DNA of 64,000 nt from Agrobacterium fabrum str. C58 (GTDB lineage Bacteria > Pseudomonadota > Alphaproteobacteria > Rhizobiales > Rhizobiaceae). The notes under the pieces are model-generated. The model was not told where the DNA came from. It did not search any database and saw only the letters and a list, made by a program, of their open reading frames with translations. Both the position numbers and the translations under genes were made by a program. The stretch spans positions 1,045,001-1,109,000 of the forward strand of contig NC_003063.2 in NCBI RefSeq assembly GCF_000092025.1, written 5' to 3'. Numbering within the stretch: position 1 is the first letter of the stretch; each line of letters opens with the position of its first letter. Positions 34,363 to 62,569 of the stretch are shown piece by piece.

Positions 34363-37300
34363 TCAGACATCAAGATAAGACAGGATGGCTGAGGCGACGT
34401 CGGACGAGTCCTGCGCCGTGGTCGACGTGCCGACCGATCCGCTGGTATTGCCGGTACTATCTTGCGCCGAAGACGTCGCCGCCGCGGGGGTCGAGAGGAA
34501 GGAAGCGATCTCCTGCACGGAGCTGTTGGCCGGCTTGCTGCTGTTCAACGCGGTAACCTGAGCCGATGTCATGGCCGCGATCTGGCCGGGCGTGAAGGCT
34601 GCGGCCTGGGAAGTCGTGAGGCCTGCGAGTGTGCTGGTGCTCAATCCCGGGATCGCGCTTGAACTCAAGCTGATGATCTGTTCGGCGGAAAATGTCGTGA
34701 GGTCGTCTGCACCAAGCGCGGCCGCCTGCCTTGCGCTGAGGGCGCTGACCTGGGATGTCGACAATGCGCCGATTTGTGCAGCATCCATTGCCGCGATCTG
34801 GCCGTAGCTCAGTGACGCCACCTGGCCTGTCGTCAGAGCGGCGATCGACTCTGAAGACAGGGAAGCGACGACGCTGTTGGACAAGCCCCTGATGGCCGTT
34901 GAACTGATTGCAGCAAGTTCGCCGCTGGAGAATGTTCCCATATCCTCCAGTGTCAGCCCGGCCAGCCCGGATGAGCTCAATGCGGTGATCTGGCTGGTGG
35001 ACAGGGCTTCGATCCTGTCCTTACCAAGGGCATCGACCTGCTCGCTGGTCAATCCGGAGACGCCTGCGGTACTCAGGGCGGCAACTTCTGCCGTGGAAAG
35101 CGCGGCGATAAAGTTCGTGGACAGCCCCTTTATCGCGCCCGCGCCAATCGCCGCGAGTTCATCCGGCGAGAAGGTCTCGAGCATGTCGGTAGACAGTCCC
35201 TGAAGTGCATCCGAAGTCAACGCCGCAATCTGACGGGTGGACAGGGCTTCGACCTGTTCGACGCTCAGCGCGCCTGCCTGCGCGCTGCCAAGGCCCGCGA
35301 CAGCCTTGGCGTCGAGAGCGGCGATCTGGCCTTTCGTCAGCGCGGCAATGCCGGTCGCGCTGAGGGCTGCAACCTGTCTGGAGGTGAGGGCGCCAATTTG
35401 TGCGCTGGTGAGGCCGTTCAACTGGCCGGTGCCGAGGGCCACAATCTGGTCGGTGGTAAGGCCCGATACGGCCGCGGTTCCGAGGGCCGCGATTTGCGCC
35501 GTCGTCAGGGAGGCGATGGTCGACGCCGACAGGCCTGCGACCGCACTGGAGCCAATCGAGGCGATTTCGGCGGTGGTGAAGATATCAAGATCATCGGCAC
35601 CGAGGGCCGCAATCTGTTTCGAACTCAGGGCCGCGATCTGGACGCTGGTCAGGGCTTCGACCTGACTGGTGCTCAAGGCCGCGATCTGATCCGTGGTGAG
35701 GCCCGCCACGCCCGCTGTGCTGAGAGCGGCTATCTGGGCTGATGAAAGCGAGCCGATGCCGGAAACGCTGAGTGCCGTCACCTGTTTGGAGGTGAGGGCG
35801 CCGATCTGCGCATTGGTGAGGGCGTCGACCTGGCCGGTGCCGAGGGCGGCGATCTGGTCGGTGGTGAGGCCGGATACGGCCGCCGCGCCGAGGGCCGCGA
35901 TCTGCGCCGTCGTCAGGGATGCGATGGTCGATGCCGGCAGGCCGGAGATTGCACCAGAACCGATCGCGGCCATTTCCGCGGTGGTGAAGATAGCCAGATC
36001 GTCGGCGCTGAGAGCCGCAATCTGTTTCGAATTCAGGGCCGCGATCTGGGCACTGGTCAGGGCCTCGACCTGGCTGATGCTCAAGGCGGCGATCTGATCC
36101 GTGGTGAGGCCTGCCACGCCTGCGGCGCCGATGGCGGCTATCTGTGCCGCTGAAAGCGAGGCAATATCGGTCACCTCAAGTGCCGCAACCTGCTTTGAGG
36201 TGAGGGCGCTGATCTGGGCATTGGTGAGGACGTTGACCTGTTCGCTTGTCAGGCCTGCGATCTGTCCGGTGCCCAAACCGCTGATGCCGGCCGAACTCAG
36301 CGCGGCGATCTGTGCTGTCGTCAACGATGCGACAGTGTCCCTTGAGAGGCCCGCAACCGCATTCGAACTGAGCGCGGCAATGTCCCCGGTCGAGAAAGTC
36401 GCAATGTCGTCTGTGCCGAGAGCGGCGATCTGTTTTGCGCTGAGAGCCGCGATCTGGCCGCTGGTCATCGCCCCGACCTGATCGGTACTCAGGGCGGCGA
36501 TCTGATCGGTGGTGAGACCTGCCGCACCCGCAGCGCTGAGGGCGGCGATCTGGCCTGTCGACAGTGCCGTGATGTCGCTCACATCAAATGCCGCAACCTG
36601 CTTGGAGGTGAGGGCGGCGATCTGGGTATTGGTGAGGACGTTGAGCTGATCACCCGTCAATGCGGCGATCTGCCCCGTGCTCAGCCCGCTGATGCCGGCC
36701 ATGCTCAGCGCGCCGATCTGGGCTGTCGTCAGCGACGCTACGGTGTCCTTCGATAGGCCGGCGATCGCACTTGAACCGAGCGCGGCCATGTCCCTCGTCG
36801 AGAAGGTTGCGATATCGTCCGTGCTCAGGACAGCAAGCTGCGTAGAACTGAGCGCGCCGACCTGAACAGTGGTCAATGCCTCGACCTGAGCCGTTGTCAG
36901 GGCCACGATCTGCACGGTGCTGAGCGCCGCGATGCTTCTCACATTCAGTGCGGCGATCTGGCCTGTAGCGAGCGACGCAATGGTCTCCGCGGAGAGGCCT
37001 GCAATCGCATCCGAATTGATCGCGGCAATATCCTTGGTCGAGAATGTCGCGATATCATCCGTGCTCAAGGCCGCGATCTGCTTCGAGGTGAGCGCGTTGA
37101 CCTGCGTGGAGGTCAAGGCCTCCACCTGAGCGGTCGTCAAGGCGGCAATCTGCGCGGTGCTCAGCGCATTGATGCTTTGCGTGTTCAGAGCCGCAATCTG
37201 GGCGGTCGTCAGTGAGGCTATTGCCTCCGCCGACAATCCCGCGATCGCACTTGAACTGATCGCAGCGATATCCTTGGTGGTGAATTTTGCCAGATCTTCT

Positions 37301-39558
37301 GTCCCCAGTTCGGCAATATGCATGGAACTGAAGTTGAGGATCTGCGCACTCGTCAGGGCTTCAACCTGGGCGGTGCTGAATGTCGCCACTTGCTGCTTGC
37401 TCAGCCCAGAAATACCCGCGGCGCTCAGGCCGGAAATCTGTGCTGTCGAAAGAGCCGCGACGGCCTCGGTGCCAAGCGCCGCAATTTGTGCCGAGCTCAA
37501 CATTGCCATCTGCCTGCTCGACAGCCTGGAAATCTGCTCGGTGCTGAGCGCGGCGATCTGGCCGGTTGAAAGTCCGGTCATGCTTGACGTGCTTATGGCC
37601 GCGATCTGGGCCATGGAAAGCGATGCGATGTTGCTGGCGCCCATCGCCGTTATCTGTCCCGAGCTGAGAGCCGCGATCTGGGCCGTGGTCAAAGCCGAAA
37701 ACTGATCGGGGCGCAGGATTGCAATCTGCTCCGGGGTCAGGCCCTTGATGCTTGCCGCACTCAATACGGCGGTCTGGCTGGTGGACAAGGCAGCGACATC
37801 GCTACCCAAGGCGGCGACCTGCGTTGAACTCAACGCCTTGATCTGCGTGGTGGACAAAAGGCTGACTTGGCTGCCGCTCAAGGCTTCTACCTGATCGGAC
37901 GTCAGGCCGGCGATCGCACTGGCGCCGAAGGCGGCGATCTGAGCGGCGGTCAGTGCTGCAATGACATCCGTGTTCAAGCCCGACATGGCCTTACCGGTAA
38001 TCGCGGCAAGATCAGCGCTCGAGAAGGTCGCGAGATCTTCCACGCTCAGGGCAGCGAGTTGTGTTGAACTCAGCGATTTCACCTGTGTCGGGGAGAGGGC
38101 TGCCACCTGACTGGTGCTCAGGGCTTCGATCTGGTCGTCGGTCAGACTGGCGATCGCGCCGGTCGTCAGGGCGGCGATCTGAGCGGTGGTCAGCGCGGCG
38201 ATTGCGCCGGTGCTCAGGCCTGATATTGCCTTGCCGGCAATCGCCGCAATATCGGCGGTCGAAAATGTCGCGATATCATCCGGGCTCAGGGCTGCAATTT
38301 GAGCCGAGTTCAGCAGCTTCACCTGTGCCGCGGAGAGGGCCTCGACCTGCCGGGTGCTGAAGGCTTCGATCTGATCGGCTGTCAGGCTAGCGATCACGCC
38401 GGTGCTCAGGGCCGCAATGTGAGTGGCCGACAGGGCCTCGACCTGACCGGCGCTCAGGGCCTGGAACTGTGCCGAACTGAGGGCGTTCAGCTGGGCTGTC
38501 GTCAGCGCGGCGATCTGATCCAGCGTCAGAGTACCGATCGCCTCCGTGCTCAGGCGGGGCATGGCTGTGCCCGTGATCGCGGCGATGTCGGCGGTGGAGA
38601 ATGTTGCGATGTCCTCTGCGCTCAGGACCGCGAGCTGCGACGCAGTCAGCGACCGTACCTGTAACGGTGACAGGGCTTCGACCTGGCTCGTACTCAAGGC
38701 CGCGACATGGGTCGTTTTGAGTGCTGCGATCTGCGCTGTCGTCAAGGCGGCTATCTGAGCGGTACTCAGGGCCTCGATCTGCTCGGTCGTCAGGCCGGCA
38801 ATCGCGCTTGCATTCAGAGCGGCGACGCGATCCGACGTCAGTTCCGCGATTGCCTCGATGCTCAGGCCCGTTATGGCCTTGCCGGTAATAGCAGCGATGT
38901 CGGCCGCGGAGAAGGTGGCGATATCGTCTGTGCCGAGGGCAGCGAGCTGAAGCGAGCTCAACACCCTCACCTGGGCAGGGGTCAAGGCTTCCGCCTGCTG
39001 CGGGCTCAGGATCGCGATCTGTTCGGTCGTCAGGCTTGCGATCGCGCTGATGTTCAGAGCCGCGATCTGATCCGGGGTAAGTCCTGCGATCACCTCCGTG
39101 CCGAGGCCCGGCATGGCTTTGGCCGTGATCGCCGCCATGTCAGCGGTCGAGAAGGTTGCGATATCCTCTGCGCTCAGCGCCGCAAGTTGTGCGGAGCTGA
39201 GAACGCGCACCTGGGAAGAGGTCAGGGCTTCTGCCTGATCCGTCGTCAGGGCATGAAACTGGGTGGTCGTCAGCGCGGAAACCTGGCTCGCACTCAGACT
39301 TTTGATGGCGTATTGATCGAGAATGTTGAGTTGGTCGAGCGTCAAACCAACAATGGCGCCCTGTGAAATGGCGCTCAGCTGCTGAGAGTTGAGGATTTTC
39401 ACATCCTCCACATCCAATGCCGCGATCTGATCCGATGAGAGCGCCTTGATCTGCGTTGTGGAGAGTGACGCGACGTCCTCGGTTGTCCAGGCTGCGACCG
39501 CCTCTGTCGAGAGATATCTGATCTGATTGACATTCAGGGAAGCAATGATCGACGTCAT
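34363..39558 (-). CDS. Giant octapeptide-repeat protein 1 (putative glycosylated solenoid)
   Basis: 1731 aa from MTSIIASLNVNQIRYLST. Nearly the whole chain keeps an 8-residue period: L-S/T-S/T-x-Q/D-I/V-x-A, about 208 octads (for example LTTAQVEA, LSTDDIAT, FSTKDIAA). Higher-order blocks of ten or more octads recur around the phrase DDIATFST. Each octad offers a hydrophobic pair (positions 1 and 6) and usually two hydroxyl residues. No Cys, and the one Trp is near the N-terminus. There is no signal peptide or membrane segment. The last 57 residues lose the period and are Ser/Thr/Ala-rich, ending ILSYLDV, which could be a type I-style secretion tail. A function is not known to me. It is on the same strand as a GT41 glycosyltransferase and glf. 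Confidence 0.9.
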   Translation of the reverse strand: MTSIIASLNVNQIRYLSTEAVAAWTTEDVASLSTTQIKALSSDQIAALDVEDVKILNSQQLSAISQGAIVGLTLDQLNILDQYAIKSLSASQVSALTTTQFHALTTDQAEALTSSQVRVLSSAQLAALSAEDIATFSTADMAAITAKAMPGLGTEVIAGLTPDQIAALNISAIASLTTEQIAILSPQQAEALTPAQVRVLSSLQLAALGTDDIATFSAADIAAITGKAITGLSIEAIAELTSDRVAALNASAIAGLTTEQIEALSTAQIAALTTAQIAALKTTHVAALSTSQVEALSPLQVRSLTASQLAVLSAEDIATFSTADIAAITGTAMPRLSTEAIGTLTLDQIAALTTAQLNALSSAQFQALSAGQVEALSATHIAALSTGVIASLTADQIEAFSTRQVEALSAAQVKLLNSAQIAALSPDDIATFSTADIAAIAGKAISGLSTGAIAALTTAQIAALTTGAIASLTDDQIEALSTSQVAALSPTQVKSLSSTQLAALSVEDLATFSSADLAAITGKAMSGLNTDVIAALTAAQIAAFGASAIAGLTSDQVEALSGSQVSLLSTTQIKALSSTQVAALGSDVAALSTSQTAVLSAASIKGLTPEQIAILRPDQFSALTTAQIAALSSGQITAMGASNIASLSMAQIAAISTSSMTGLSTGQIAALSTEQISRLSSRQMAMLSSAQIAALGTEAVAALSTAQISGLSAAGISGLSKQQVATFSTAQVEALTSAQILNFSSMHIAELGTEDLAKFTTKDIAAISSSAIAGLSAEAIASLTTAQIAALNTQSINALSTAQIAALTTAQVEALTSTQVNALTSKQIAALSTDDIATFSTKDIAAINSDAIAGLSAETIASLATGQIAALNVRSIAALSTVQIVALTTAQVEALTTVQVGALSSTQLAVLSTDDIATFSTRDMAALGSSAIAGLSKDTVASLTTAQIGALSMAGISGLSTGQIAALTGDQLNVLTNTQIAALTSKQVAAFDVSDITALSTGQIAALSAAGAAGLTTDQIAALSTDQVGAMTSGQIAALSAKQIAALGTDDIATFSTGDIAALSSNAVAGLSRDTVASLTTAQIAALSSAGISGLGTGQIAGLTSEQVNVLTNAQISALTSKQVAALEVTDIASLSAAQIAAIGAAGVAGLTTDQIAALSISQVEALTSAQIAALNSKQIAALSADDLAIFTTAEMAAIGSGAISGLPASTIASLTTAQIAALGAAAVSGLTTDQIAALGTGQVDALTNAQIGALTSKQVTALSVSGIGSLSSAQIAALSTAGVAGLTTDQIAALSTSQVEALTSVQIAALSSKQIAALGADDLDIFTTAEIASIGSSAVAGLSASTIASLTTAQIAALGTAAVSGLTTDQIVALGTGQLNGLTSAQIGALTSRQVAALSATGIAALTKGQIAALDAKAVAGLGSAQAGALSVEQVEALSTRQIAALTSDALQGLSTDMLETFSPDELAAIGAGAIKGLSTNFIAALSTAEVAALSTAGVSGLTSEQVDALGKDRIEALSTSQITALSSSGLAGLTLEDMGTFSSGELAAISSTAIRGLSNSVVASLSSESIAALTTGQVASLSYGQIAAMDAAQIGALSTSQVSALSARQAAALGADDLTTFSAEQIISLSSSAIPGLSTSTLAGLTTSQAAAFTPGQIAAMTSAQVTALNSSKPANSSVQEIASFLSTPAAATSSAQDSTGNTSGSVGTSTTAQDSSDVASAILSYLDV

Positions 39559-39773
39559 GTCTGGAAAATCCTAAAGCCCAAGCCTCGACAGATGAATTTC
39601 CTGCCCCAGCCCTCGGAAGAGCATCGGTTACTCAGGTCCATCATTTTTCAGATGTTGAGTACGCAATCGGGCTTGCCTGAACCTTAAGTTGCGCTTCCGC
39701 CGATCGCCCTTTGCAATATTGAGTTCAGTACAGCAGAGGCTCGGACACCGGCGTGCTCGCCGGCCGATAAATC

Positions 39774-40970
<1,197 letters not shown>

Positions 40971-41032
40971 TCAAGATTTGCCGGGAGGTGCCGCATGGCA
41001 TTTGTCCTGGCCGGTGCCGTTTGATGCGGCGC

Positions 41033-43078
41033 TCAATTGTCCGGGTTCTGCCAGAGGCGGCGGTCATAAGGGATCGGCGCGTAATCGTGCCATTGCCTCA
41101 GCTTCTTCAGGTAGCGCTCGCGGTAGCTCTGTTCGTCCTCGAACTCGATGTTTTCCAGCAGCGCTTCCGCACCCGCTTCATAATAAATATCGAGATTGCT
41201 GAGATCGGGCACCGGGGTCTCGCCGCGCTCGCATTCGCCCTGCATTTGCCAGAAGAGTTCTTCCAGACGCCGTGCGAGCGCAGGGATATCCCGCAGGACG
41301 CTCGTCTCGCGCTGCCGGGCGATCGATTCCCTGACCTCCAGAAGGCTTTGGCGGTCTCGTTCGAAACCGATGGCACGGGCGACATAATCTTCCGGTGAAG
41401 AGCAGATCATTTCCGGCACGCCCGCTGCGGTGACAATGCTGCCGCAGAAGCGTGCGGCGAAGGTCTTGCCGTACATGGTGAGGACGGGCAGGCCTGAGGT
41501 TATCGCATCCGATGCCGTGGAATGTGCGCCATAGGGGAATGTATCGAGAAACAGATCGGCAAGACCGATGCGGGCAATATGCTGCGGGTTCTGGGCCTTC
41601 GGCGCGAAGACGAGCCGCTCGGACGCAACGCCGCTTTTTTCCGCAAGATCTCGCAGGCGTTGATTGACGTCGTCATCACCCGTCAGCAGCCATAGCAGGC
41701 TGCCGGGCGTCTCCGACAGGATGGTCATCCATCGTGCGAAGCAGTTTTCGGTGATCTTCTGCATGCCGTTGAAGCTGGCATAAACGAAGGCATCCTCCGG
41801 CAGTCCGACGTCGGCCCGGCTCGGCCGGGCGGCGACGGGCCGCTTTCGGTCGAGCGGCTGGTCGCAGGCGATGCGCAGCACCTTCTCGGAATAATAGATT
41901 TCGTTCTCCGGCGGGATCATGTAGCCGTCAGAGATCAGATATTGATGGAACGGGCTGCCCATCGATCCGGGGTAACCGCAGAAGCTGACGATGACAGGTG
42001 CTGGACGATAGGCGAAGATTTTTGCGCGCGCGTCCTTGGTGTAGCCATTCACGTCGATCAATATATCGATCTCGTCGGCGATGATCTGTGATGCGGCGGT
42101 GGCATCGTCCACACCGTGAATATCCCGCCAGCAATGGACTGCGGCCTTGATGCGCTCCTGCGTGCTGTCGGTGCCGCGGACATTGCCGCAATAATAGGCG
42201 AAGACCTCGAGGCTGTCCTTGTCATGCAGTTCCAGAACTTCGCAAAGGGCGAAGCCGACGGCGTGATCGCGAAGATCCGATGAGAGGTAACCGACGCGCA
42301 GACGCTGACCGGTGCCGGATTTCTGCTTCGGTGATCTTCGCGGAAAGCGGCTGAGGTCCGGACGCGCGCCGATCAGCGTTTTGCTGAGGCGGTAAGCTTT
42401 GGCCAGCTGGAACATCGGGTCGTCGGCGTAACAGCTGAGCGTCAGCGACGACATCGCATCGAGCATCTTGCGCGGGGAAATGTGGTTCGAAGGGGCGAGG
42501 ACCGGCCATTTGCACTGGCGCTGTCGCAACGATGCCCAGTGCTGGCCGGCTTCCGGCAGTTCCGGCCGCAGTTCAAATGCCTGCAGCAAAGCGGTCTCGG
42601 CCTCTTCGAGCTTGCCGGCGCCTTCGAGAACCCGGCCCATGTTCTGCAGGGTCATGTGCCGATGGCCGATCGTCTCGGCGTCGACATTTTTCGTCACCTC
42701 GGCATAATGCGACCATTGCTCCACCGCGTGGCCGATCAGCCCGGCATCTTCAAGCGCGCGGCCGAGATTGATGTGGCCGGGAGCAAATTCCGGATTGGCC
42801 TTCAGACACGCCCGGAACGCCTGTACCGCACCTGCGCGATCGCCCAGCTGGTTGAGCATGACGGCATAGTTGAAATAGGCGAGATGGATCGTCGGGTTAT
42901 TGTCGTTGAATGCGACCCAGGTCTTGTAAAGCTCTGCCGCAGCGGCCTGCTGGCCGGCGGCATTGAGCGCCTCTGATACGCTCAGCAGATCCATGAGGCT
43001 CAACCGTTGGTTCCGCGCGAGATCAAGGGCGCTGGGAGCGGCGGCGTCGTTTGAAGGAGAGACGTGGTTGGCGGTCAT
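41033..43078 (-). CDS. TPR-containing GT41 glycosyltransferase (OGT/SPINDLY-like)
   Basis: 681 aa from ATG 43078 (AGGATGTC upstream; a TTG 15 bp earlier is weaker). The N-terminal 200 residues hold about four TPR-like repeats (YFNYAVMLNQLGDRAGAVQA, INLGRALEDAGLIGHAVEQW). The catalytic half shows the SPINDLY/OGT signatures: RVGYLSSDLRDHAVGF (about 270), IDILIDVNGYT, FCGYPGSMGSPFHQYLISD, and LFLDTFPYGAHSTASDAITS (about 525). GT41 members transfer GlcNAc, glucose or fucose onto Ser/Thr or Asn of cytosolic proteins, including bacterial adhesins (HMW1C). It lies between two Ser/Thr-rich repeat proteins, which are its likely acceptors. Confidence 0.93.
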   Translation of the reverse strand: MTANHVSPSNDAAAPSALDLARNQRLSLMDLLSVSEALNAAGQQAAAAELYKTWVAFNDNNPTIHLAYFNYAVMLNQLGDRAGAVQAFRACLKANPEFAPGHINLGRALEDAGLIGHAVEQWSHYAEVTKNVDAETIGHRHMTLQNMGRVLEGAGKLEEAETALLQAFELRPELPEAGQHWASLRQRQCKWPVLAPSNHISPRKMLDAMSSLTLSCYADDPMFQLAKAYRLSKTLIGARPDLSRFPRRSPKQKSGTGQRLRVGYLSSDLRDHAVGFALCEVLELHDKDSLEVFAYYCGNVRGTDSTQERIKAAVHCWRDIHGVDDATAASQIIADEIDILIDVNGYTKDARAKIFAYRPAPVIVSFCGYPGSMGSPFHQYLISDGYMIPPENEIYYSEKVLRIACDQPLDRKRPVAARPSRADVGLPEDAFVYASFNGMQKITENCFARWMTILSETPGSLLWLLTGDDDVNQRLRDLAEKSGVASERLVFAPKAQNPQHIARIGLADLFLDTFPYGAHSTASDAITSGLPVLTMYGKTFAARFCGSIVTAAGVPEMICSSPEDYVARAIGFERDRQSLLEVRESIARQRETSVLRDIPALARRLEELFWQMQGECERGETPVPDLSNLDIYYEAGAEALLENIEFEDEQSYRERYLKKLRQWHDYAPIPYDRRLWQNPDN

Positions 43079-43521
43079 GACATCCTGCGGCAAGGCGACA
43101 AAGGGTCGAAGATAAAACAGCCTGTTGATGGGCCGTCTTTAGCTATCGCAGATAACTTGCCTGTGGCTGGATGTGTTTAAAGCCGGATTGCTTGCCCGGA
43201 TCGTCCCCTGGCCCGGAGAGGTGAAATGACCCTCTAGTTAAACGGCGGCTTCCGAAGCGCTGGCGCAGTCATGTGAAGCGATGCCTGCTCACATGTTCTG
43301 CGGATGGGGGGTGTTTCATCCCGCCGTTCTCATGATGATTGAAGGATTGATCTAATAAAATTGCCGATCCCCTCACGCATAAAGTATCGGAAAGAAAATA
43401 CGACGTAATAATCGCCAATCGCTAGGGGTATTTATTGCGGTTTATGGTTAGATAAAACTATCGCGTATTTCGCTGAAAAGATATGCTATTAAAACATTCT
43501 GTAAGGTTATTTCAAACGTAC
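43079..43521. other. Noncoding spacer upstream of the GT41 gene
   Basis: About 440 bp without a credible gene. The half toward 43521 is markedly AT-rich (for example TTAAAACATTCTG and TAAAGTATCGG) compared with the surrounding 60% GC genes. It probably holds the promoter of the GT41-glf transcript on the minus strand. No clear -35/-10 pair or operator could be singled out. Confidence 0.5.
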
Positions 43522-43548
43522 CACGACGCGGCTTTTGGCCGCGTCGTG
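43522..43548 (-). terminator. Hairpin after giant repeat protein 2
   Basis: Eleven-bp perfect stem CACGACGCGGC / GCCGCGTCGTG with a five-base loop, 21 bp past the stop of the repeat gene. On the minus strand only a short GTTTG follows, so termination may be incomplete and some transcription may reach the GT41 gene. Confidence 0.6.
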
Positions 43549-43569
43549 TGTTGTCTGGGTTCTTAAGCC

Positions 43570-46539
43570 TTATACTGTCTTGTAGGCTTTGATGACCGCC
43601 TCGACCTGGGCATCGTTCATGACCTTCATCTGCTGGGCCGAAAGTGCTCCAGCCTGCGCGCTGCTGAGGCCGCCAATGGCCGCAGTGGAAAGACCGGCAA
43701 TGGCGTTGGCGCCAATGGCCTTGATCTCGTCTGTCGAGAACAGGGCAAGCTCGGTGCTGTCGAGCGTCGCGACCTGAGCAGAGTTCAGACCTGCGACCTG
43801 CTCGGATGTGAGGGCCTTGATCTGGTCTGTCGAGAGCGCTGCGAACTGCGTCGTGGACAATGCTGCCGCCTGTGCCTTGCTGAGTGCGGCGATGTTGCCG
43901 GTGCTGAGCTTGGTGGCATCAAGTCCGCCGAGAGCCTTGGCGGTGATCGCCTTGACTTCGTCCGCCGTGAAGGTGGCGAGGTTCGCGGAGTTGAAGGCGT
44001 TGAGCTGCGTCGAAGACAGGCCGGCAATCTGGGTCTTCGTCAGTGCGGATGCATTGTCGGTGGTAAGCGCTGCCAGGGCTGCGGCAGACAGACCGGAGAC
44101 GGCAGTAGCGCCGATCGCCTTGATCTCATCGGTGGAGAAGAGAGCCAGTTCGTCGCTGCTCAGTGTTGCAACCTGCGCGGAGGTGAGGCCGGCAACCTGA
44201 TCGGAGGTGAGAGCCTTGATCTGGTCGGTCGACATAGCAGCGAACTGTGTCGTCGACAGCGCCGAAACCTGTGCCTTGCTGAGTGCGGCGACGTTGCCGG
44301 TGCTGAGCTTAGTGACATCCAGACCGGCCAGCGCCTTGGTGGTGACCGCCTTAATCTCGTCTGCCGTGAAGGTAGCGAGATTTGCAGAGGTGAGGGCGTT
44401 GAGCTGCGTGGATGAGAGGCTAGCAATCTGCGTCTTCGTCAGTGCGGATGCATTGTCGGTGGTAAGCGCTGCCAGCGCCGCAGCAGAGAGACCCGCAACG
44501 GCGTTGGCGGCGATCGACTTGATCTCGTCGGTGGTGAAGAGAGCGAGTTCGTCGCTGCTCAGTGTCGCAACCTGGGCAGAGTTGAGGCCCGAAACCTGCT
44601 CGGAGGTGAGAGCCTTGATCTGGTCGGTCGACAGGGCTGCAAACTGCGTCGAGGAAAGCGATGTAACCTGCGCTTTGGTCAGCGCGGCGATGTTGCCGGT
44701 GCTGAGCTTGGTGACATCGAGACCGCCGAGAGCCTTGGTGGTGATTGCCTTGATCTCGTCTGCAGAGAAGGTGGCAAGGTTTGCGGAGGTCAGGGCATTG
44801 ATCTGCGTGGACGACATGCCCGCGATCTGGGTCTTCGTCAGTGCGGATGCATTGTCGGTGGTAAGCGCCGCCAGGGCTGCGGCAGACAGGCCGGCAACGG
44901 CGTTGGCGCCGATCGCCTTGATCTCATCGGTGGAGAAGAGAGCCAGTTCGTCGCTGCTGAGCGTCGCAACTTGCGCGGAGCTGAGACCGGCGACCTGCTC
45001 GGATGTCAGGGCCTTGATCTGGTCGGTCGACATGGCAGCGAACTGTGTCGTCGACAGCGCCGAAACCTGTGCCTTGCTGAGGGCTGCGACGTTGCCGGTG
45101 CTGAGCTTGGTCACATCGAGGCCGGCCAGTGCCTTGGTGCTGATGGCCTTGACTTCATCGGCGGAGAAAGTGGCGATGCTGCCTGATGTCAGGGCATTGA
45201 GCTGTGTCGAAGACAGACCAGCGATCTGTGTCTTCGTCAGTGCGGTTGCATTGCCGGTGGTGAGGGCAGCCAGGGCTGCTGTGGAAAGGCCAGCGACCGC
45301 ATTGGCGCTGAAGGCGCTGATCTCATCGGTGGAGAAGAGAGCCAGTTCGTCGCTGCTGAGCGTCGCAACCTGCGCGGAGCTGAGACCGGCGACCTGCTCG
45401 GATGTGAGGGCCTTGATCTGGTCGGTCGACATGGCTGCGAACTGTGTTGAGGACAGCGATGCGGCCTGGGTTTTGGTCAGCGCGGCGATGTTGCCGGTGC
45501 TGAGCTTGGTAACATCGAGACCGGCCAGCGCCTTGGTGCTGATGGCCTTGATCTCATCTGCAGAGAAGGTTGCAAGGTTGGCGGAGGTCAGTGCATTCAG
45601 CTGTGTCGAAGACAGACCCGCGATCTGGGTCTTCGTCAGTGCTGCAGCGTTGTCGGTGGTAAGCGCCGCCAGGGCTGCGGCAGACAGGCCGGCAACGGCG
45701 TTGGCGCCGATCGCCTTGATCTCATCGGTGGAGAAGAGAGCCAGTTCGTCGCTGCTGAGCGTCGCAACCTGCGCGGAGCTGAGACCGGCGACCTGATCGG
45801 AGGTGAGGGCCTTGATCTGGTCGGTCGACATGGCAGCGAACTGTGTCGTCGACAGCGCCGAAACCTGTGCCTTGCTGAGGGCTGCGATGTTGCCGGTGCT
45901 GAGTTTGGTGACATCGAGGCCAGCGAGGATCTTGTTGCTGATCGCCTTGACTTCGTCCGCCGAGAAGGTTGCAAGGCTGCCCGACGTGAGCGCGTTGAAC
46001 TGCGTGGAAGACATGGCGGCGATCTGAGACTTCGTCAGTGCGGCTGCATTGTCGGTGCTGAGACCGGCGATAGCCGCCGCGGAAAGACCTGCGATGGCAT
46101 TGGCGCTGATCGACTTGATCTCGTCGGTGGTGAAGAGAGCGAGTTCGTCGCTGCTCAGCGTTGCGACCTGGGCGGAGCTGAGCCCTGCGACCTGAGAGGA
46201 GTTGAGCGCCTTGATCTGGTCGGTCGACATGGCGTCGATCTGGCTGGCATAAAGTGCCGTGACCTGGGACGAAGACAGGCTGCTGACCTGGGCGGAGCTC
46301 AGTTTCGCCATCTGGGTGAGCGTCAGGCCCTTGACCGCCGTTACCGAAATGGCGCGGAGGTCTTCGGAGCTGAAAAGAGCAAGGTTATCCGTGCTCAACG
46401 AGGCGATCTGAGACGAAGAGAGAGCCTTGATCTTGGTGCTATCAAGAGCATTTACGTCTTCCGACGTCAGGCCGGCGATCGTCGACGTGGAAAGCTTGGA
46501 AATCTGCACAGCAGACAGTGAAGAGAGGATCGAAGTCAT
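43570..46539 (-). CDS. Giant octapeptide-repeat protein 2
   Basis: 989 aa starting MTSILSSLSAVQISKLSTST at 46539 behind AAGGACACGTTC. The N-terminus parallels that of repeat protein 1 (MTSI-hydrophobic-x-SL), so the two are homologous. The chain is octads such as LSSAQVAT, MSTDQIKA, LTSEQVAG, arranged as six near-identical 133-residue super-units (16 octads plus one 5-residue step, LDVTK). No Cys or Trp, signal peptide or membrane segment. It ends MKVMNDAQVEAVIKAYKTV without the Ser/Thr tail of protein 1. Function unknown; a solenoid, scaffold or surface protein is plausible, with Ser/Thr at two positions of most octads as glycosylation sites. Confidence 0.9.
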   Translation of the reverse strand: MTSILSSLSAVQISKLSTSTIAGLTSEDVNALDSTKIKALSSSQIASLSTDNLALFSSEDLRAISVTAVKGLTLTQMAKLSSAQVSSLSSSQVTALYASQIDAMSTDQIKALNSSQVAGLSSAQVATLSSDELALFTTDEIKSISANAIAGLSAAAIAGLSTDNAAALTKSQIAAMSSTQFNALTSGSLATFSADEVKAISNKILAGLDVTKLSTGNIAALSKAQVSALSTTQFAAMSTDQIKALTSDQVAGLSSAQVATLSSDELALFSTDEIKAIGANAVAGLSAAALAALTTDNAAALTKTQIAGLSSTQLNALTSANLATFSADEIKAISTKALAGLDVTKLSTGNIAALTKTQAASLSSTQFAAMSTDQIKALTSEQVAGLSSAQVATLSSDELALFSTDEISAFSANAVAGLSTAALAALTTGNATALTKTQIAGLSSTQLNALTSGSIATFSADEVKAISTKALAGLDVTKLSTGNVAALSKAQVSALSTTQFAAMSTDQIKALTSEQVAGLSSAQVATLSSDELALFSTDEIKAIGANAVAGLSAAALAALTTDNASALTKTQIAGMSSTQINALTSANLATFSADEIKAITTKALGGLDVTKLSTGNIAALTKAQVTSLSSTQFAALSTDQIKALTSEQVSGLNSAQVATLSSDELALFTTDEIKSIAANAVAGLSAAALAALTTDNASALTKTQIASLSSTQLNALTSANLATFTADEIKAVTTKALAGLDVTKLSTGNVAALSKAQVSALSTTQFAAMSTDQIKALTSDQVAGLTSAQVATLSSDELALFSTDEIKAIGATAVSGLSAAALAALTTDNASALTKTQIAGLSSTQLNAFNSANLATFTADEVKAITAKALGGLDATKLSTGNIAALSKAQAAALSTTQFAALSTDQIKALTSEQVAGLNSAQVATLDSTELALFSTDEIKAIGANAIAGLSTAAIGGLSSAQAGALSAQQMKVMNDAQVEAVIKAYKTV
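43741..46134 (-). repeat. Six tandem 399-bp super-repeats inside the repeat gene
   Basis: The landmark GTTGCCGGTGCTGAG (plus strand) recurs at 43894, 44293, 44692, 45091, 45490 and 45889, exactly 399 bp apart each time. One unit is 133 codons, so copy changes keep the reading frame. Within each unit a weaker 24-bp period encodes the octads. High identity between units implies recent duplication or ongoing homogenisation. Confidence 0.92.
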
Positions 46540-47294
46540 GAACGTGTCCTTTACCGAATGGCGGATGGTCACGCCTATCTGCTGCCAGACACTGCCCATG
46601 ATGACAGGAACCCGGCATCCGCAAATAAAGCGAAATTGTGGAGAACATGGCTCATGTGAACCTGCGCTGGAAACGCTTCATGCAATTCGAGCCGGAGATC
46701 GGACCCGGATTTTCCACGCTAGCTTGTGCGAATGCCGCTAATAATTTCTTGCCGCTTAAGAAGCTCACGACGTGCGTGTCATATCAGGCGAACATTTAAA
46801 GCCGAGTTAATATTTAGAGTGGCGTCATCTATTCTTGGTAGATGCATATTTTAGATTCTAGTGAAGTATAAAATAAAGCGGACAAGTGTCGGTTTGGCCA
46901 TCTTTCACTGCCAGAAACCAGATGCGTTCGCTATCGTATAGGTAGCATGACTTCGGGATGGCAGGAGTATCGGGTTCTGGTTGCCGGTCTCGCCCTAAAC
47001 TGAATAACGATGCTTGGTAGGGGCTGATGCGCTTATGTAACGCTTGCCCGCCGCGGTTGAAAAATCGTTTTTTTCTTGATTCTCTACGCTGGTATTAGGT
47101 TTTTTTAAAATCGGAAGCTGTTTTTAGGCCATGACAATGCTTCAGCCGGGCAGATGCGACGAATAGGCTAATTCAGCCATACGCTGATGACGACATTCCG
47201 CAAACGGCGCCGAAAGAGCCTTCCCGCTATTGCAGTCAGATCGCTCTTATAACCGCCGCCCTTCCGCGCGTCGTCATGCTGGAATGTGCCGGCT
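46540..47294. other. Long noncoding, AT-rich spacer
   Basis: About 755 bp between the repeat gene and the LysR gene. The first 250 bp have ordinary composition and would contain the leader and promoter of repeat protein 2. From about 46790 to 47130 the sequence is AT-rich with runs such as TTTTTTT (47096-47107 area) and TAAAATAAAG. No open frame with a start signal and recognisable product was found on either strand. Could hold a small RNA, regulatory sites or an old insertion. Confidence 0.5.
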
Positions 47295-59206: not shown

Positions 59207-59683
59207 TTACTTTGCTGAAACTTTGAGATCGCCGCGCATGCCGGCTTCGTAATGCCCGGGTTTCAGGCAGGCGAATTCGAACATGCCGTCATTGGTGAAT
59301 TTCCAGACGATTTCGCCGCTTTCGCCCGGCGCGAGGCTGATGGCGTTCGGATTGTCGTGTTCCATCTCGGGAGCCTTTGCCATGACGGCCTTGTGCTCCA
59401 GATTGGCCTTCTGTTCGTCGAGGATGAATTCATGGTCCAGTTCGCCGACATTCTTCACGGCAAAACGCACGGTCTTGCCCTTCTTGAATTCGAACTTGGC
59501 GGGGGTGAACATCATCTTGCCGTCAGGCGTTTCCTTCATCGTTACCTGAATGGTCTGGGTCACCTTGGATTTGTCGCCCGGTTCGCCGATCGCCATTACG
59601 TTGTCGCCGCCGGAGTGGGTGCCGCCTGCAAAAGCGGGCGTGGCGAGAGCGGTGAGAAGCAGTGCAAGTTTCAGTCTGGTCAT
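59207..59683 (-). CDS. Periplasmic cupredoxin
   Basis: 158 aa. Signal peptide MTRLKLALLLTALATPAFA, then GGTHSGGDN. Type 1 copper ligands visible in family order: His in VGELDHEFILDE, Cys in FEFACLKPGHYEAGMRG, with the following His and Met. Plastocyanin-like fold. Likely electron donor or copper chaperone for the multicopper oxidase encoded 43 bp upstream. It lacks membrane anchors, so soluble in the periplasm. Confidence 0.9.
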   Translation of the reverse strand: MTRLKLALLLTALATPAFAGGTHSGGDNVMAIGEPGDKSKVTQTIQVTMKETPDGKMMFTPAKFEFKKGKTVRFAVKNVGELDHEFILDEQKANLEHKAVMAKAPEMEHDNPNAISLAPGESGEIVWKFTNDGMFEFACLKPGHYEAGMRGDLKVSAK

Positions 59684-59726
59684 TTTATGGTTTCCTTGGT
59701 TCTGGTGGGGGGTGTGATCTGCACGA

Positions 59727-61076
59727 TCAGCCGTGTTTCATCGGTTTCGGCGTGATCTGCGTTTTGGGGTCGGAGTTTTTTTGCGTATCCGGCAATTCGC
59801 CGGTCCATTCCCAGGCCTGGGTTCCGGGCGGGTTTTCGTACCAGCCAGGATCGGTGTAATCGCCCGCGGAGATGCCTTCGCGAACCTTCACCACGGAGAA
59901 CATGCCGCCCATCTCAATCGGGCCATGCGGTCCCCATCCAGTCATCATGGGGACAGTGTTCTCAGGGATTTCCATTTCCATCGCGCCCATGTCGGCCATG
60001 CCGGCGGTGCCCATCGGCATATAGTCCGGCCGGATCTTGCGGATCTTTTCGGTGACGGTTTTTTTGTCGACGCCGATGAAGGTCGGGACGTCATGTCCCA
60101 TGGCATTCATCGTGTGGTGCGACTTGTGGCAATGGATCGCCCAGTCGCCGACATATTTGGCGTCGAATTCATAGGCCCGCATGGCGCCTACGGGGATATC
60201 GATGCTGACCTCAGGCCAGCGCGCCTCCGGCCGCACCCAGCCGCCATCCGTGCAGGTCACCTCGAAATCGTAACCATGCATATGGATCGGATGGTTGGTC
60301 ATCGTCAGGTTGCCGACCCGGACACGCACGCGATCATTCTTGGAAACCACCAGCGGATCGATGCCCGGGAACACCCGGCTGTTCCAAGCCCACAGATTGA
60401 AATCCGTCATCGTCATGATTTTGGGGACGGAGGCGCCGGGATTTATATCGAAGGCGTTGAGCAGGAACACGAAATCGCGGTCCACAGGCATGAAAGCCGG
60501 GTCTTTCGGGTGGATCACGAAGAAGCCCATCATGCCCATCGCCATCTGCACCATCTCGTCAGAATGCGGGTGGTACATGAAGGTGCCTGATTTCACGAGG
60601 TCGAACTCGTAGACGAAAGTCTTGCCAACGGGGATATGCGGCTGCGACAGACCGCCCACACCATCCATGCCCGACGGCAGAATCATGCCGTGCCAGTGGA
60701 TCGTCGTATGTTCCGGCAGCTTGTTGGTCACAAAGATGCGCACCCGGTCGCCCTCGACGGCCTCGATGGTCGGGCCGGGTGACTGGCCGTTATAGCCCCA
60801 CAGGCGGGCGGTCATGCCCTCGGCCATTTCGCGCTCCACCGGCTCGGCGACAAGGTGGAATTCCTTGACGCCATTGTTCATCCGGAAGGGAAGCGTCCAG
60901 CCATTGATGGTGACGACCGGATTGTAGTCGGGACCGGTGGTGGGCTTCACCGGTGCCTGCGTCGCTGCCGTTTCCATGAGAGCCGCTTCCGGCAGGCTGC
61001 TGTTTGAGGTTTTCGCCCAGGCCGCCGAGGAGACCATTGCGGCGCTGACGCCCAGAAGTTGTCTTCTATTGAACAT
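59727..61076 (-). CDS. Multicopper oxidase (CopA/CueO-type)
   Basis: 449 aa from ATG 61076 behind AAGGAAAAGACC. N-terminus MFNRRQLLGVSAAMVSSAAW is a Tat signal. All four copper motifs are visible: TTIHWHGMILPSGMDG, TFMYHPHSDEMVQ, TNHPIHMHGYDFEV, and DWAIHCHKSHHTMNAMG (type 1 Cys-His). A Met-rich loop (MGTAGMADMGAMEMEI) is like the Cu(I)-binding insert of CueO. Oxidises Cu(I) to the less permeable Cu(II) in the periplasm. It lies 15 bp downstream of the TolC-like gene in a common transcript. Confidence 0.94.
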   Translation of the reverse strand: MFNRRQLLGVSAAMVSSAAWAKTSNSSLPEAALMETAATQAPVKPTTGPDYNPVVTINGWTLPFRMNNGVKEFHLVAEPVEREMAEGMTARLWGYNGQSPGPTIEAVEGDRVRIFVTNKLPEHTTIHWHGMILPSGMDGVGGLSQPHIPVGKTFVYEFDLVKSGTFMYHPHSDEMVQMAMGMMGFFVIHPKDPAFMPVDRDFVFLLNAFDINPGASVPKIMTMTDFNLWAWNSRVFPGIDPLVVSKNDRVRVRVGNLTMTNHPIHMHGYDFEVTCTDGGWVRPEARWPEVSIDIPVGAMRAYEFDAKYVGDWAIHCHKSHHTMNAMGHDVPTFIGVDKKTVTEKIRKIRPDYMPMGTAGMADMGAMEMEIPENTVPMMTGWGPHGPIEMGGMFSVVKVREGISAGDYTDPGWYENPPGTQAWEWTGELPDTQKNSDPKTQITPKPMKHG

Positions 61077-61090
61077 GGTCTTTTCCTTTC

Positions 61091-62569
61091 TCAATGTCCG
61101 CCACCGCCGCCGCCGGATGCGGCGGCAACCTCGGTCTCTCCGCCAGCCGCACCCGCACCGCCGCCGTAAATGGCGGGAGCGAGTCCGGCTTCGGCAAGCC
61201 AGAAGTCGCGTTTGGCATCAATGGCGAGCAGGTTCGAATTGACTTTTTCGCGGCTGTCGGCCAGCAGCTCGAAAGTGTTGGTGAGCATGCCGTTATAGGT
61301 CCGCATCGATTCCTCCTCGATCCGGTTGCGCAACGGCACGACGCTGTTGCGGTAGTGCAGGGCGATATCGTAGGTCGAGCGGTATGCCTGATAGGCCGAG
61401 CGGGCTTGCGAACGGACATTGACCGCCTTTTCCGCCAGGAGATTTGCGGCGCGCATATAAGCGAGTTCGGATTCCCGCATGCGGGCCTGACCGGAATCGA
61501 AGATTGGAATGACGAACTCCAGTTCGGCGCGCCCGGTCGTCCTTTTCTTTATGCGGTCTTCATCCCGTTCGCGCTCGGTCTCGAAACCGGAGCGCAGTGT
61601 GAGATCGGTGACATAGCGGGTCGCCTCGGTAAGCTTGAACGACCGGGCAGTTGCTTCAAGATCGAGCTTGGCCATCTGCAGATCCACCCGACGTTGCAAG
61701 GCCTCGGCCTCGATCGTGTCACGCTGGGCCAGCACCCTGGGAAGTGACGGCAGGCGGTTGGGGATGCTGTATTGGATATCTGATCCCCACAGCCCCATCA
61801 GCCGTGTGAGTTCCTCCCTGGCAAGACGGGCCTCCAGCCGCGCCTTGGCGATCTGGCCGGTGAGTTCGGCGTAAAACACCTGCTCACGGGCTTGGCCTTC
61901 CTTGTTCATCGCGCCTGACTCACCGAGTTTCGTGGCGAGCTCCGAAGCGGCGGCCGCAGCGGTCTGCGCCTGCGCCAGCTGGCCGACGTTTTCCGAAGCC
62001 GCCACGGCGGAAATCCATGCCCGACGGGTATCCGCAGCCAGTTGCAACGTTTTCAGTGCCGCGCCCAGCTGCGCCTTGCGAAAGCCCGTATCGGCAATTT
62101 CGACATTTTTTTTGAGCGTGGCGAGTGCCAGAATATTGCTGGTGAGGACACCTTCGATCGTCTTGTAGGCCCTGAGGCCCGGCGTGCCGATACCGGTCAG
62201 CCCCAGGCCGATGCTTGGGTTGACCAGCAGGGTCGATTGCCATGCGGTGGCAGCCGATTCGCCCAGATCGGCGTAAGCCGCCTGCAGGCCCTTATTGTTC
62301 AGCAGCGCGACCTGCACCGCCGTTTCGACGTCGAGGGTCTTGCTGGCTGCCATCAGCGTTTTGACGCGGGCCTCTGTTGCCCGTGCCTCGGCTCGGTTCT
62401 GCACCCAGGCGGTCTGCTTTCCGGTCGCCTCGGATGTCTTCGCCGAGACAGTCGTAAAACCGGCGTCCCGGGAAGCATATTGTGCGGCGGATACGCAGCC
62501 GCTGAGAAAAAGCGGCAACGACAGGATTGCCGCGAGTTTTGATCCGAGTGTGAATGGTCGTGTCATCAT
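61091..62569 (-). CDS. TolC-like outer-membrane efflux lipoprotein
   Basis: 492 aa. The N-terminus MMTRPFTLGSKLAAILSLPL ends in the lipobox LFLSGC, so it is a lipid-anchored OMF. Long amphipathic helical repeats (ASELATKLGESGAMNKEGQA; AEALQRRVDLQMAKLDLEAT) fit the NodT/CusC family. The last 25 residues are a Gly/Ala-rich tail ending GGGGGGH. Overlaps the lipoprotein gene upstream as ATGATGA. No RND pump or membrane-fusion protein is present in the window, unlike in Cus systems. Confidence 0.9.
   Translation of the reverse strand: MMTRPFTLGSKLAAILSLPLFLSGCVSAAQYASRDAGFTTVSAKTSEATGKQTAWVQNRAEARATEARVKTLMAASKTLDVETAVQVALLNNKGLQAAYADLGESAATAWQSTLLVNPSIGLGLTGIGTPGLRAYKTIEGVLTSNILALATLKKNVEIADTGFRKAQLGAALKTLQLAADTRRAWISAVAASENVGQLAQAQTAAAAASELATKLGESGAMNKEGQAREQVFYAELTGQIAKARLEARLAREELTRLMGLWGSDIQYSIPNRLPSLPRVLAQRDTIEAEALQRRVDLQMAKLDLEATARSFKLTEATRYVTDLTLRSGFETERERDEDRIKKRTTGRAELEFVIPIFDSGQARMRESELAYMRAANLLAEKAVNVRSQARSAYQAYRSTYDIALHYRNSVVPLRNRIEEESMRTYNGMLTNTFELLADSREKVNSNLLAIDAKRDFWLAEAGLAPAIYGGGAGAAGGETEVAAASGGGGGGH

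Follow-up and report, generated by a model that had tools for sequence, protein, structure and literature searches.

A conserved GT41-Glf gene cassette of Agrobacterium fabrum as a putative cytosolic O-glycosylation system for giant octad-repeat proteins

In the plant-associated soil bacterium Agrobacterium fabrum str. C58, a cassette of four genes encodes two giant octad-repeat proteins (rep1 and rep2), a TPR-GT41 glycosyltransferase and a UDP-galactopyranose mutase (Glf). Based on the observed gene content, the co-occurrence and adjacency of the genes across genomes, a position-specific Ser/Thr pattern in the repeats and conserved catalytic residues in the enzyme, we propose that this cassette is a dedicated cytosolic protein O-glycosylation system for the octad proteins, the product of which would be exported. 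As a reading of sequences, we give this a probability of about 0.7. A first-pass annotation of this DNA had already suggested the repeats, with two Ser/Thr per octad, as the glycosylated substrates. The system proved to be real and conserved and the acceptor idea gained support at octad position 2, but one Ser/Thr per octad tracks GT41 and not two.

The cassette is located in a window of 64,000 nt (GCF_000092025.1, NC_003063.2, 1,045,001-1,109,000), which is the whole stretch of DNA that was analysed. Its features are listed in Table 1. The four same-strand genes named by the first-pass annotation are all present on the minus strand, and each of them has profile matches. However, their order, given as repeat 2, GT41, Glf and repeat 1, had to be corrected to rep2, Glf, GT41 and rep1 by coordinate, and in the direction of transcription it is rep1-GT41-Glf-rep2. 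The hairpin that follows rep1 has a fold z-score of -4.45 over 81 nt. It scores as terminator-like only on the plus strand, and such sites are not in excess in the region (12 compared to 10.6 expected). The hairpin is a possible candidate for a transcript-end or processing element, and might be a means to make rep1 in excess of the GT41 enzyme. Upstream of rep1 a single, weak sigma-70-like site was found (46892-46865), with no excess over chance. Elsewhere in the window, a row of genes at 59207-62569 encodes cupredoxin-like, multicopper-oxidase-like and outer-membrane efflux proteins (the last with an OEP profile match, the other names taken from reading the sequence) that probably function in copper handling.

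Table 1. Features of the cassette, with positions counted from the first nucleotide of the window
Feature	Position	Strand	Description
rep1	43570..46539	-	Octad (ALTTAQ, PF20080) protein, 989 aa from the ATG at 46539; ORF open to 46599 (1009 aa, PF20080 E 6e-139)
TPR-GT41	41033..43078	-	681 aa from the likelier ATG at 43078; PF13844 E 3e-69; ORF with the TTG start at 43093 encodes 686 aa
Glf	39774..40952	-	UDP-galactopyranose mutase, 392 aa; TIGR00031
rep2	34363..39558	-	Octad (ALTTAQ) protein, 1731 aa; PF20080 E 4e-291; non-repeat C-terminal tail with the end ASAILSYLDV
12-bp hairpin	43522..43548	-	Directly 3' of rep1, between rep1 and GT41
Intergenic region	46540..47294	-	755 bp upstream of rep1; expected site of a promoter for the set

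Both repeat proteins clearly belong to the ALTTAQ family: the profile search matched PF20080 repeatedly, with 56 stretches in one and 18 in the other, and in the A. fabrum genome matches with E<=0.001 were found only in these two ORFs. In both proteins a period of 8 is far above the background, with an identity at lag 8 of 0.34 and 0.30 compared to 0.05-0.13 at lags not divisible by 8. Ser and Thr together make up 25-26% of the residues, approximately two per octad, in agreement with the first-pass claim. The consensus of the octad is L-[S/T]-[S/T]-x-Q-[I/V]-x-A, and Ser/Thr occupies position 2 in 80 of the 124 scored octads of rep1 and in 128 of 210 in rep2. By sequence, 9zem (HeliScrew4) is the only clear solved relative of the octad proteins. 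Pfam matches to CAAP1, HTH, Sigma70_r4 and LRR_EndoS were rejected as composition artefacts. Among the PF20080 matches listed (120 of 198), relatives with extra domains harboured PF00353, PF13205, PF00648 and PF05860, which we take to be RTX, Ig-like, calpain and haemagglutinin domains, respectively. In A. tumefaciens B6, rep2 appears as two overlapping frames (L056 2484-7675, L076 13592-18783), which points to either a disrupted gene or an error in the sequence.

The GT41 protein matches several TPR models in addition to PF13844, and is the only PF13844 match in its genome. The closest named genes are those of 'Rhizobium rhizogenes' ST15.13.057 (98% identity) and A. tumefaciens B6 (91%), with the next at 89%. 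Residue numbers follow the 686-aa ORF, and equivalences were taken from an alignment to PDB OGT chains and from the residue list in the excerpted text of PMC9715652. On this basis D273, H277 and K446 occupy the positions of D554, H558 and K842 of human OGT, and the catalytic residues are thus intact. D273 and H277 are kept in all 112 subfamily sequences of the fetched loci, and K446 in 111, with one ambiguous residue in the remaining sequence. At the position of OGT C917 and SPINDLY Y744, all 112 sequences carry a Tyr (Y521) and not the small residue of OGT. According to the excerpt of PMC9715652, the SPINDLY Tyr clashes with GlcNAc, and a GlcNAc donor should therefore be disfavoured. At the OGT L653 position, as read from the alignment, Cys is found in 107 of 112 sequences (C372) and Leu in five, all from non-Rhizobiaceae loci (L019, L073, L155, L159 and L212); on the sequences, this difference would be one evolutionary change that is indistinguishable from kinship. 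By profile, the enzyme does not classify as NGT/HMW1C, with a score of 22.6 bits against the NF049992 cut-off of 1000. A second, divergent GT41 (GT41b) was seen beside visR or flagellin genes in L062, L064, L066, L067, L069-L072, L078 and L120, and is likely an FlmG-type flagellin enzyme.

A scan of 84,980 species genomes, based on eight aligned GT41 proteins, yielded 301 relatives. The analysis was continued with the best 80 of these 301, which are 63-98% identical and have Rhizobiales-type titles, one being a Phyllobacteriaceae MAG. Octad neighbours were called with our own HMM (at least 60 bits). All ORFs were counted, because with a greedy ORF choice longer antisense ORFs mask part of the octad and glf genes; a 415-aa 'hypothetical' gene turned out to be an ORF antisense to glf and was no longer used as a reference. 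An octad gene was present in 76 of the 80 loci, with a median gap of 228 bp to GT41 and a maximum of 1,502 bp (65 within 1 kb), and in 49 loci the two genes are on the same strand. The four loci without an adjacent octad gene (R. giardinii, R. herbae, a MAG on a 5.7-kb contig and A. vitis) have one elsewhere in the genome, which in A. vitis is ~14 kb from GT41, apparently on the same contig. The conserved association between GT41 and octad genes, on which the first-pass proposal depended, is therefore present in these relatives. Outside the Rhizobiaceae, all eight loci that we examined (two from Pseudomonas, one each from Cereibacter and Pseudoroseomonas, two Niveispirillum-like, G034 and G243) hold GT41 and octad genes together, a count that is biased since several of them were fetched through the octad match.

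The association also holds at the level of whole genomes. In the A. fabrum genome and 40 relatives (GT41 subfamily at >=600 bits, PF20080 at E<=1e-8, glf at E<=1e-20), GT41 and PF20080 were found in the identical 19 genomes, namely 18 of the 25 of the genus and G034. The 18 genus genomes carry glf as well, and the other 7 have none of the three genes; in 17 of the 18 there is one glf, located next to GT41, and G013 has two. G034 harbours GT41 and octad genes without a glf at E<=1e-20, showing that Glf is not universal with this pair, and two genomes outside the genus (G028 and G036) have glf without GT41 or octad genes. We also searched a family sample of 297 evenly drawn genomes, which overlaps with the former set (GT41 E<=1e-150, octad E<=1e-20, glf E<=1e-60). 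GT41 was found in 30, octad genes in 52 and glf in 78 genomes. All 30 GT41-positive genomes have both octad genes and glf, compared to 22 and 48, respectively, of the 267 without GT41 (Fisher 2e-27 for GT41-octad and 3e-20 for GT41-glf, both ignoring kinship). The 22 genomes with octad genes but without GT41 comprise 15 with strong (E<=1e-90) and 7 with weak matches (E 1e-34 to 1e-21), a division drawn after the scores were known. Only 5 of these 22 carry glf, three strong (G576, G503 and G590) and two weak (G619 and G663). As this is near the background rate, the presence of glf goes with GT41 and not with the octad gene. Within the 80 kept GT41 loci, glf lies inside the locus in 59 and is missing from 21. 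It was present in all 25 genomes that were searched for it, which were these 21, those of L084, L086 and L140 (glf but no octad gene in the locus) and that of L089. Octad genes were found in all GT41 genomes tested, and in Shinella and other Rhizobiaceae also without a nearby GT41.

Next to gene content, the repeats themselves differ with GT41. Octads were extracted as L-1-2-3-4-[IV]-6-7, leaving out proteins of less than 250 aa or with fewer than 15 octads. We compared linked proteins, whose fetched locus contains GT41 (n=129, including proteins cut by the contig), unlinked proteins in genomes with GT41 (n=21) and proteins of GT41-negative genomes (n=16, from 15 genomes without this GT41 subfamily, 4 of which hold a more distant GT41). 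The fraction of Ser/Thr at position 2 was 0.766, 0.635 and 0.386, respectively. Because 11 of the 129 linked rows are second fetches or pieces of counted genes, the linked value was recalculated without them and was 0.763 (n=118). At position 1 the fractions were 0.757, 0.759 and 0.741. A second register rule resulted in 0.77, 0.64 and 0.40 at position 2, and 0.75, 0.75 and 0.77 at position 1. Ala (29%) and Pro (11%) are frequent at position 2 in GT41-negative genomes, indicating that the fold does not need Ser/Thr there. That Ser/Thr at position 2 tracks GT41 suggests that this position is the likely sugar acceptor, whereas position 1, where Ser/Thr is as frequent in the absence of GT41 as in its presence, is probably the helix N-cap. 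The idea of the repeats as acceptors thus stands for position 2, but not for position 1. Taken together, it is likely that the octad protein is the acceptor of GT41. Eight proteins of unassigned class, with means of 0.71 (position 1) and 0.41 (position 2), were kept outside these class contrasts; L156, L157 and L158 from this group served as unlinked partners in within-genome pairs.

A tree was built from the N- and C-termini, for which 174 scored proteins were reduced to 114 that had a recognisable start and were long enough, and then to 100 non-redundant tips. The 14 GT41-negative proteins on it form two groups, each with a support of 0.98, and the GT41-linked L018 (0.51) is placed in one of these; GT41 presence takes 3 parsimony changes. 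Phylogenetic regression on 97 of the proteins gave +0.39 at position 2 (t=8.0), +0.04 at position 1 (t=1.2), +0.06 at position 3 (t=1.7) and +0.06 at position 7 (t=2.3); as only ~3 evolutionary changes lie behind the position-2 contrast between genomes, the p values are not to be taken at face value. In the pairs within 19 genomes, linked proteins exceeded unlinked ones at position 2 in 17 of 19 (mean +0.185, Wilcoxon 0.0001), at position 1 in 10 and at position 3 in 7, and were slightly lower at position 6 (-0.036, p 0.026). The position-2 contrast was largest in the Niveispirillum-like G215 (0.95 vs 0.28) and G311 (0.96 vs 0.22), and ranged from +0.25 to +0.31 in four Shinella-like genomes. 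In nine Agrobacterium-type pairs the difference was small (-0.10 to +0.15), being reversed in G002 and nearly level in G009 (0.677 vs 0.682). L155, L159 and L019, which have two adjacent GT41 genes, have a Ser/Thr fraction of at least 0.76 at position 3. An explanation in which a second GT41 gene stands for a second modified position was rejected, since loci with one GT41 beside the octad gene (L073 and L212) also reach 0.70-0.79 there. The octads of these five loci carry Ser/Thr at both position 2 and position 3.

The Ser/Thr residues might instead be purely structural helix caps, with GT41 modifying something else. A short-helix solenoid would need an S/T-x-x-Q capping pattern, and the equal Ser/Thr content of position 1 with and without GT41 agrees with this. 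However, the frequent Ala and Pro at position 2 in GT41-negative genomes, and the higher Ser/Thr content there in the presence of GT41, make this explanation very unlikely. Alternatively, GT41 could be an FlmG-like flagellin glycosyltransferase and the octad gene a mere neighbour. Flagellar genes lie within 9 of the 80 main GT41 loci, and in 11 of the 25 genus genomes the order is GT41 - glf - octad - fliF - visN - visR, with cheB upstream, on the other side of the set, in 10. FlmG is itself a cytosolic TPR-GT enzyme that acts on flagellins, as stated in the excerpt of PMC7591256. On the other hand, 71 of the 80 loci have no match to the flagellar references, octad genes are present in all tested GT41 genomes and Ser/Thr at position 2 tracks this very GT41. 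Moreover, the 11 genus genomes with the cassette at the fliF side, together with G013, are the only 12 of the 25 that hold the distinct GT41b, which would fit the flagellin role. We therefore consider a flagellin role of the cassette enzyme highly improbable.

Glf passes the TIGR00031 equivalog cut-off (314 bits vs 303.75) and thereby classifies as UDP-galactopyranose mutase; its best solved relative is 2bi7 (582 bits). The usual role of bacterial Glf is in providing Galf for surface polysaccharides, and glf is found in 48 of 267 GT41-negative family genomes, so it might serve lipopolysaccharide or capsule with only an incidental link to the cassette. This is unlikely given that glf is absent from all 7 genus genomes without GT41, and in those with GT41 is single and beside it in all but G013. 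The first-pass suggestion that Glf supplies UDP-Galf to the system is partly borne out, in that Glf tracks GT41 genome by genome, and Glf probably serves the glycan of this cassette. As to how, GT41 could be a protein O-galactofuranosyltransferase that draws directly on UDP-Galf as its donor and attaches a single Galf at position 2 in the majority of octads, a tentative reading that we regard as rather doubtful. To our knowledge, no GT41 with a furanose donor was known earlier. With Galf as the direct donor, lineages with another neighbouring sugar enzyme would have re-tuned GT41. In Pseudoroseomonas, an annotated UDP-glucuronic acid decarboxylase lies directly upstream of GT41 (L019 12926-13900), possibly a swap of the sugar-donor enzyme. 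The Leu instead of Cys at the OGT L653 position in non-Rhizobiaceae loci fits such re-tuning, with absence of glf seen in one genome (G034) of the five with Leu. GT41 could also start the chain with a sugar other than Galf, such as glucose, to which another transferase later adds Galf to form an extended glycan. HMW1C-type GT41 relatives use UDP-Glc, and 5 of the 80 loci, as well as the genus regions L056-L058 (one of these from the same genome as L076), have a GT2 gene between the octad gene and GT41. The other 75 loci have no match to the one GT2 reference, which counts only weakly against an extended glycan as it was the sole transferase reference used. We judge this route a serious possibility, somewhat short of even odds. 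A PF12248-type gene occurs together with GT41 in 23 of 80 loci. Among 50,697 phage records, 88 match Glf, 82 of them over at least 80% of Glf, and the matches include 20 Rhizobium and 5 Agrobacterium phage records. One in Agrobacterium phage Atu_ph04 is reported in the excerpt of PMC6630229.

Neither rep1 nor rep2 has a hydrophobic N-terminus. In 141 of 163 octad proteins a Tyr lies within the last 8 residues, compared to 1.7% expected. The N-terminus MTSI of the octad protein resembles what we take to be rhizobial flagellin starts, and fits equally well as the first octad. Type I secretion genes were found beside 6 of the 8 non-Rhizobiaceae loci and 2 of the 80 main loci, where generic ABC ATPases that matched the C39-ABC reference weakly were not scored; no type I secretion or flagellar genes were recognised among the 10 window ORFs scanned. 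The sequences suggest that the octad protein is perhaps exported by type I secretion, but this route is uncertain since no more than 2 of the 80 main loci have such genes as neighbours, and flagellar neighbours are commoner. A surface adhesin or a flagellum-associated rod are possible roles.

For sugar transfer, donor, solenoid fold, export route and function we infer the following. By analogy with FlmG and SPINDLY, the TPR domain of GT41 would hold the octad solenoid, while the GT-B domain would add a sugar to Ser/Thr at octad position 2 in the cytosol. Up to ~208 sites on rep1 and rep2 could be modified in this way, 8 residues apart along one face. Glf would make UDP-Galf for the system, possibly as the direct donor of GT41. 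The resulting sugar-coated rod, without a signal peptide and with the conserved C-terminal tag of the family, would then be exported, perhaps by type I secretion, and would act at the cell surface as an adhesin, scaffold or flagellum-associated filament.

Parts of such a system are known elsewhere. BAHT/TibC heptosyltransferases modify repeat autotransporter adhesins periodically in the cytosol, as proposed for the cassette, but belong to another transferase family and use a heptose donor and a beta-helix acceptor. In Caulobacter crescentus, FlmG is a cytosolic enzyme that binds its acceptor with an N-terminal TPR and O-glycosylates flagellin with a C-terminal GT; four Thr of the flagellin FljK are cited as FlmG sites in the excerpted text of PMC7591256. 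It shares with the cassette GT41 the TPR and GT parts, the cytosolic location and the O-glycosylation of an exported protein, presuming that the octad protein is exported. Its substrate and sugar, flagellin and pseudaminic acid in the same excerpt, differ from an octad protein with a probably Galf-based sugar. SPINDLY and OGT likewise combine TPR and GT41 parts with the catalytic D/H/K, and the Tyr at the SPINDLY Y744 position is common to SPINDLY and the cassette enzyme. These enzymes function in eukaryotic regulation with GDP-fucose or UDP-GlcNAc (excerpt of PMC9715652), whereas the cassette GT41 is paired with Glf and one structural acceptor. HMW1C/NGT systems also have a GT41-type enzyme, a large secreted adhesin and simple hexoses, but modify N-linked sequons and rely on two-partner secretion, as far as the excerpts of PMC3012730 and PMC3983070 describe them.

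In the open-access literature (subscription papers and preprints were outside the scope) we found no paper naming the ALTTAQ repeat or HeliScrew and, among titles and abstract openings, no account of a GT41-octad-Glf association. If the proposed reading is true, the giant unannotated proteins of PF20080 would gain a role as acceptors of a dedicated cytosolic glycosylation machine. Their acceptor site would be readable from the sequence, and GT41-plus and GT41-minus relatives would form a natural test set. The donor chemistry of GT41 would be extended, and a strictly periodic, simple acceptor would become available for glyco-engineering; with Galf as the direct donor, the product would be a rod that carries sugars on one face, spaced 8 residues apart. 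It would also provide a reason for the retention of glf in some Rhizobiaceae.
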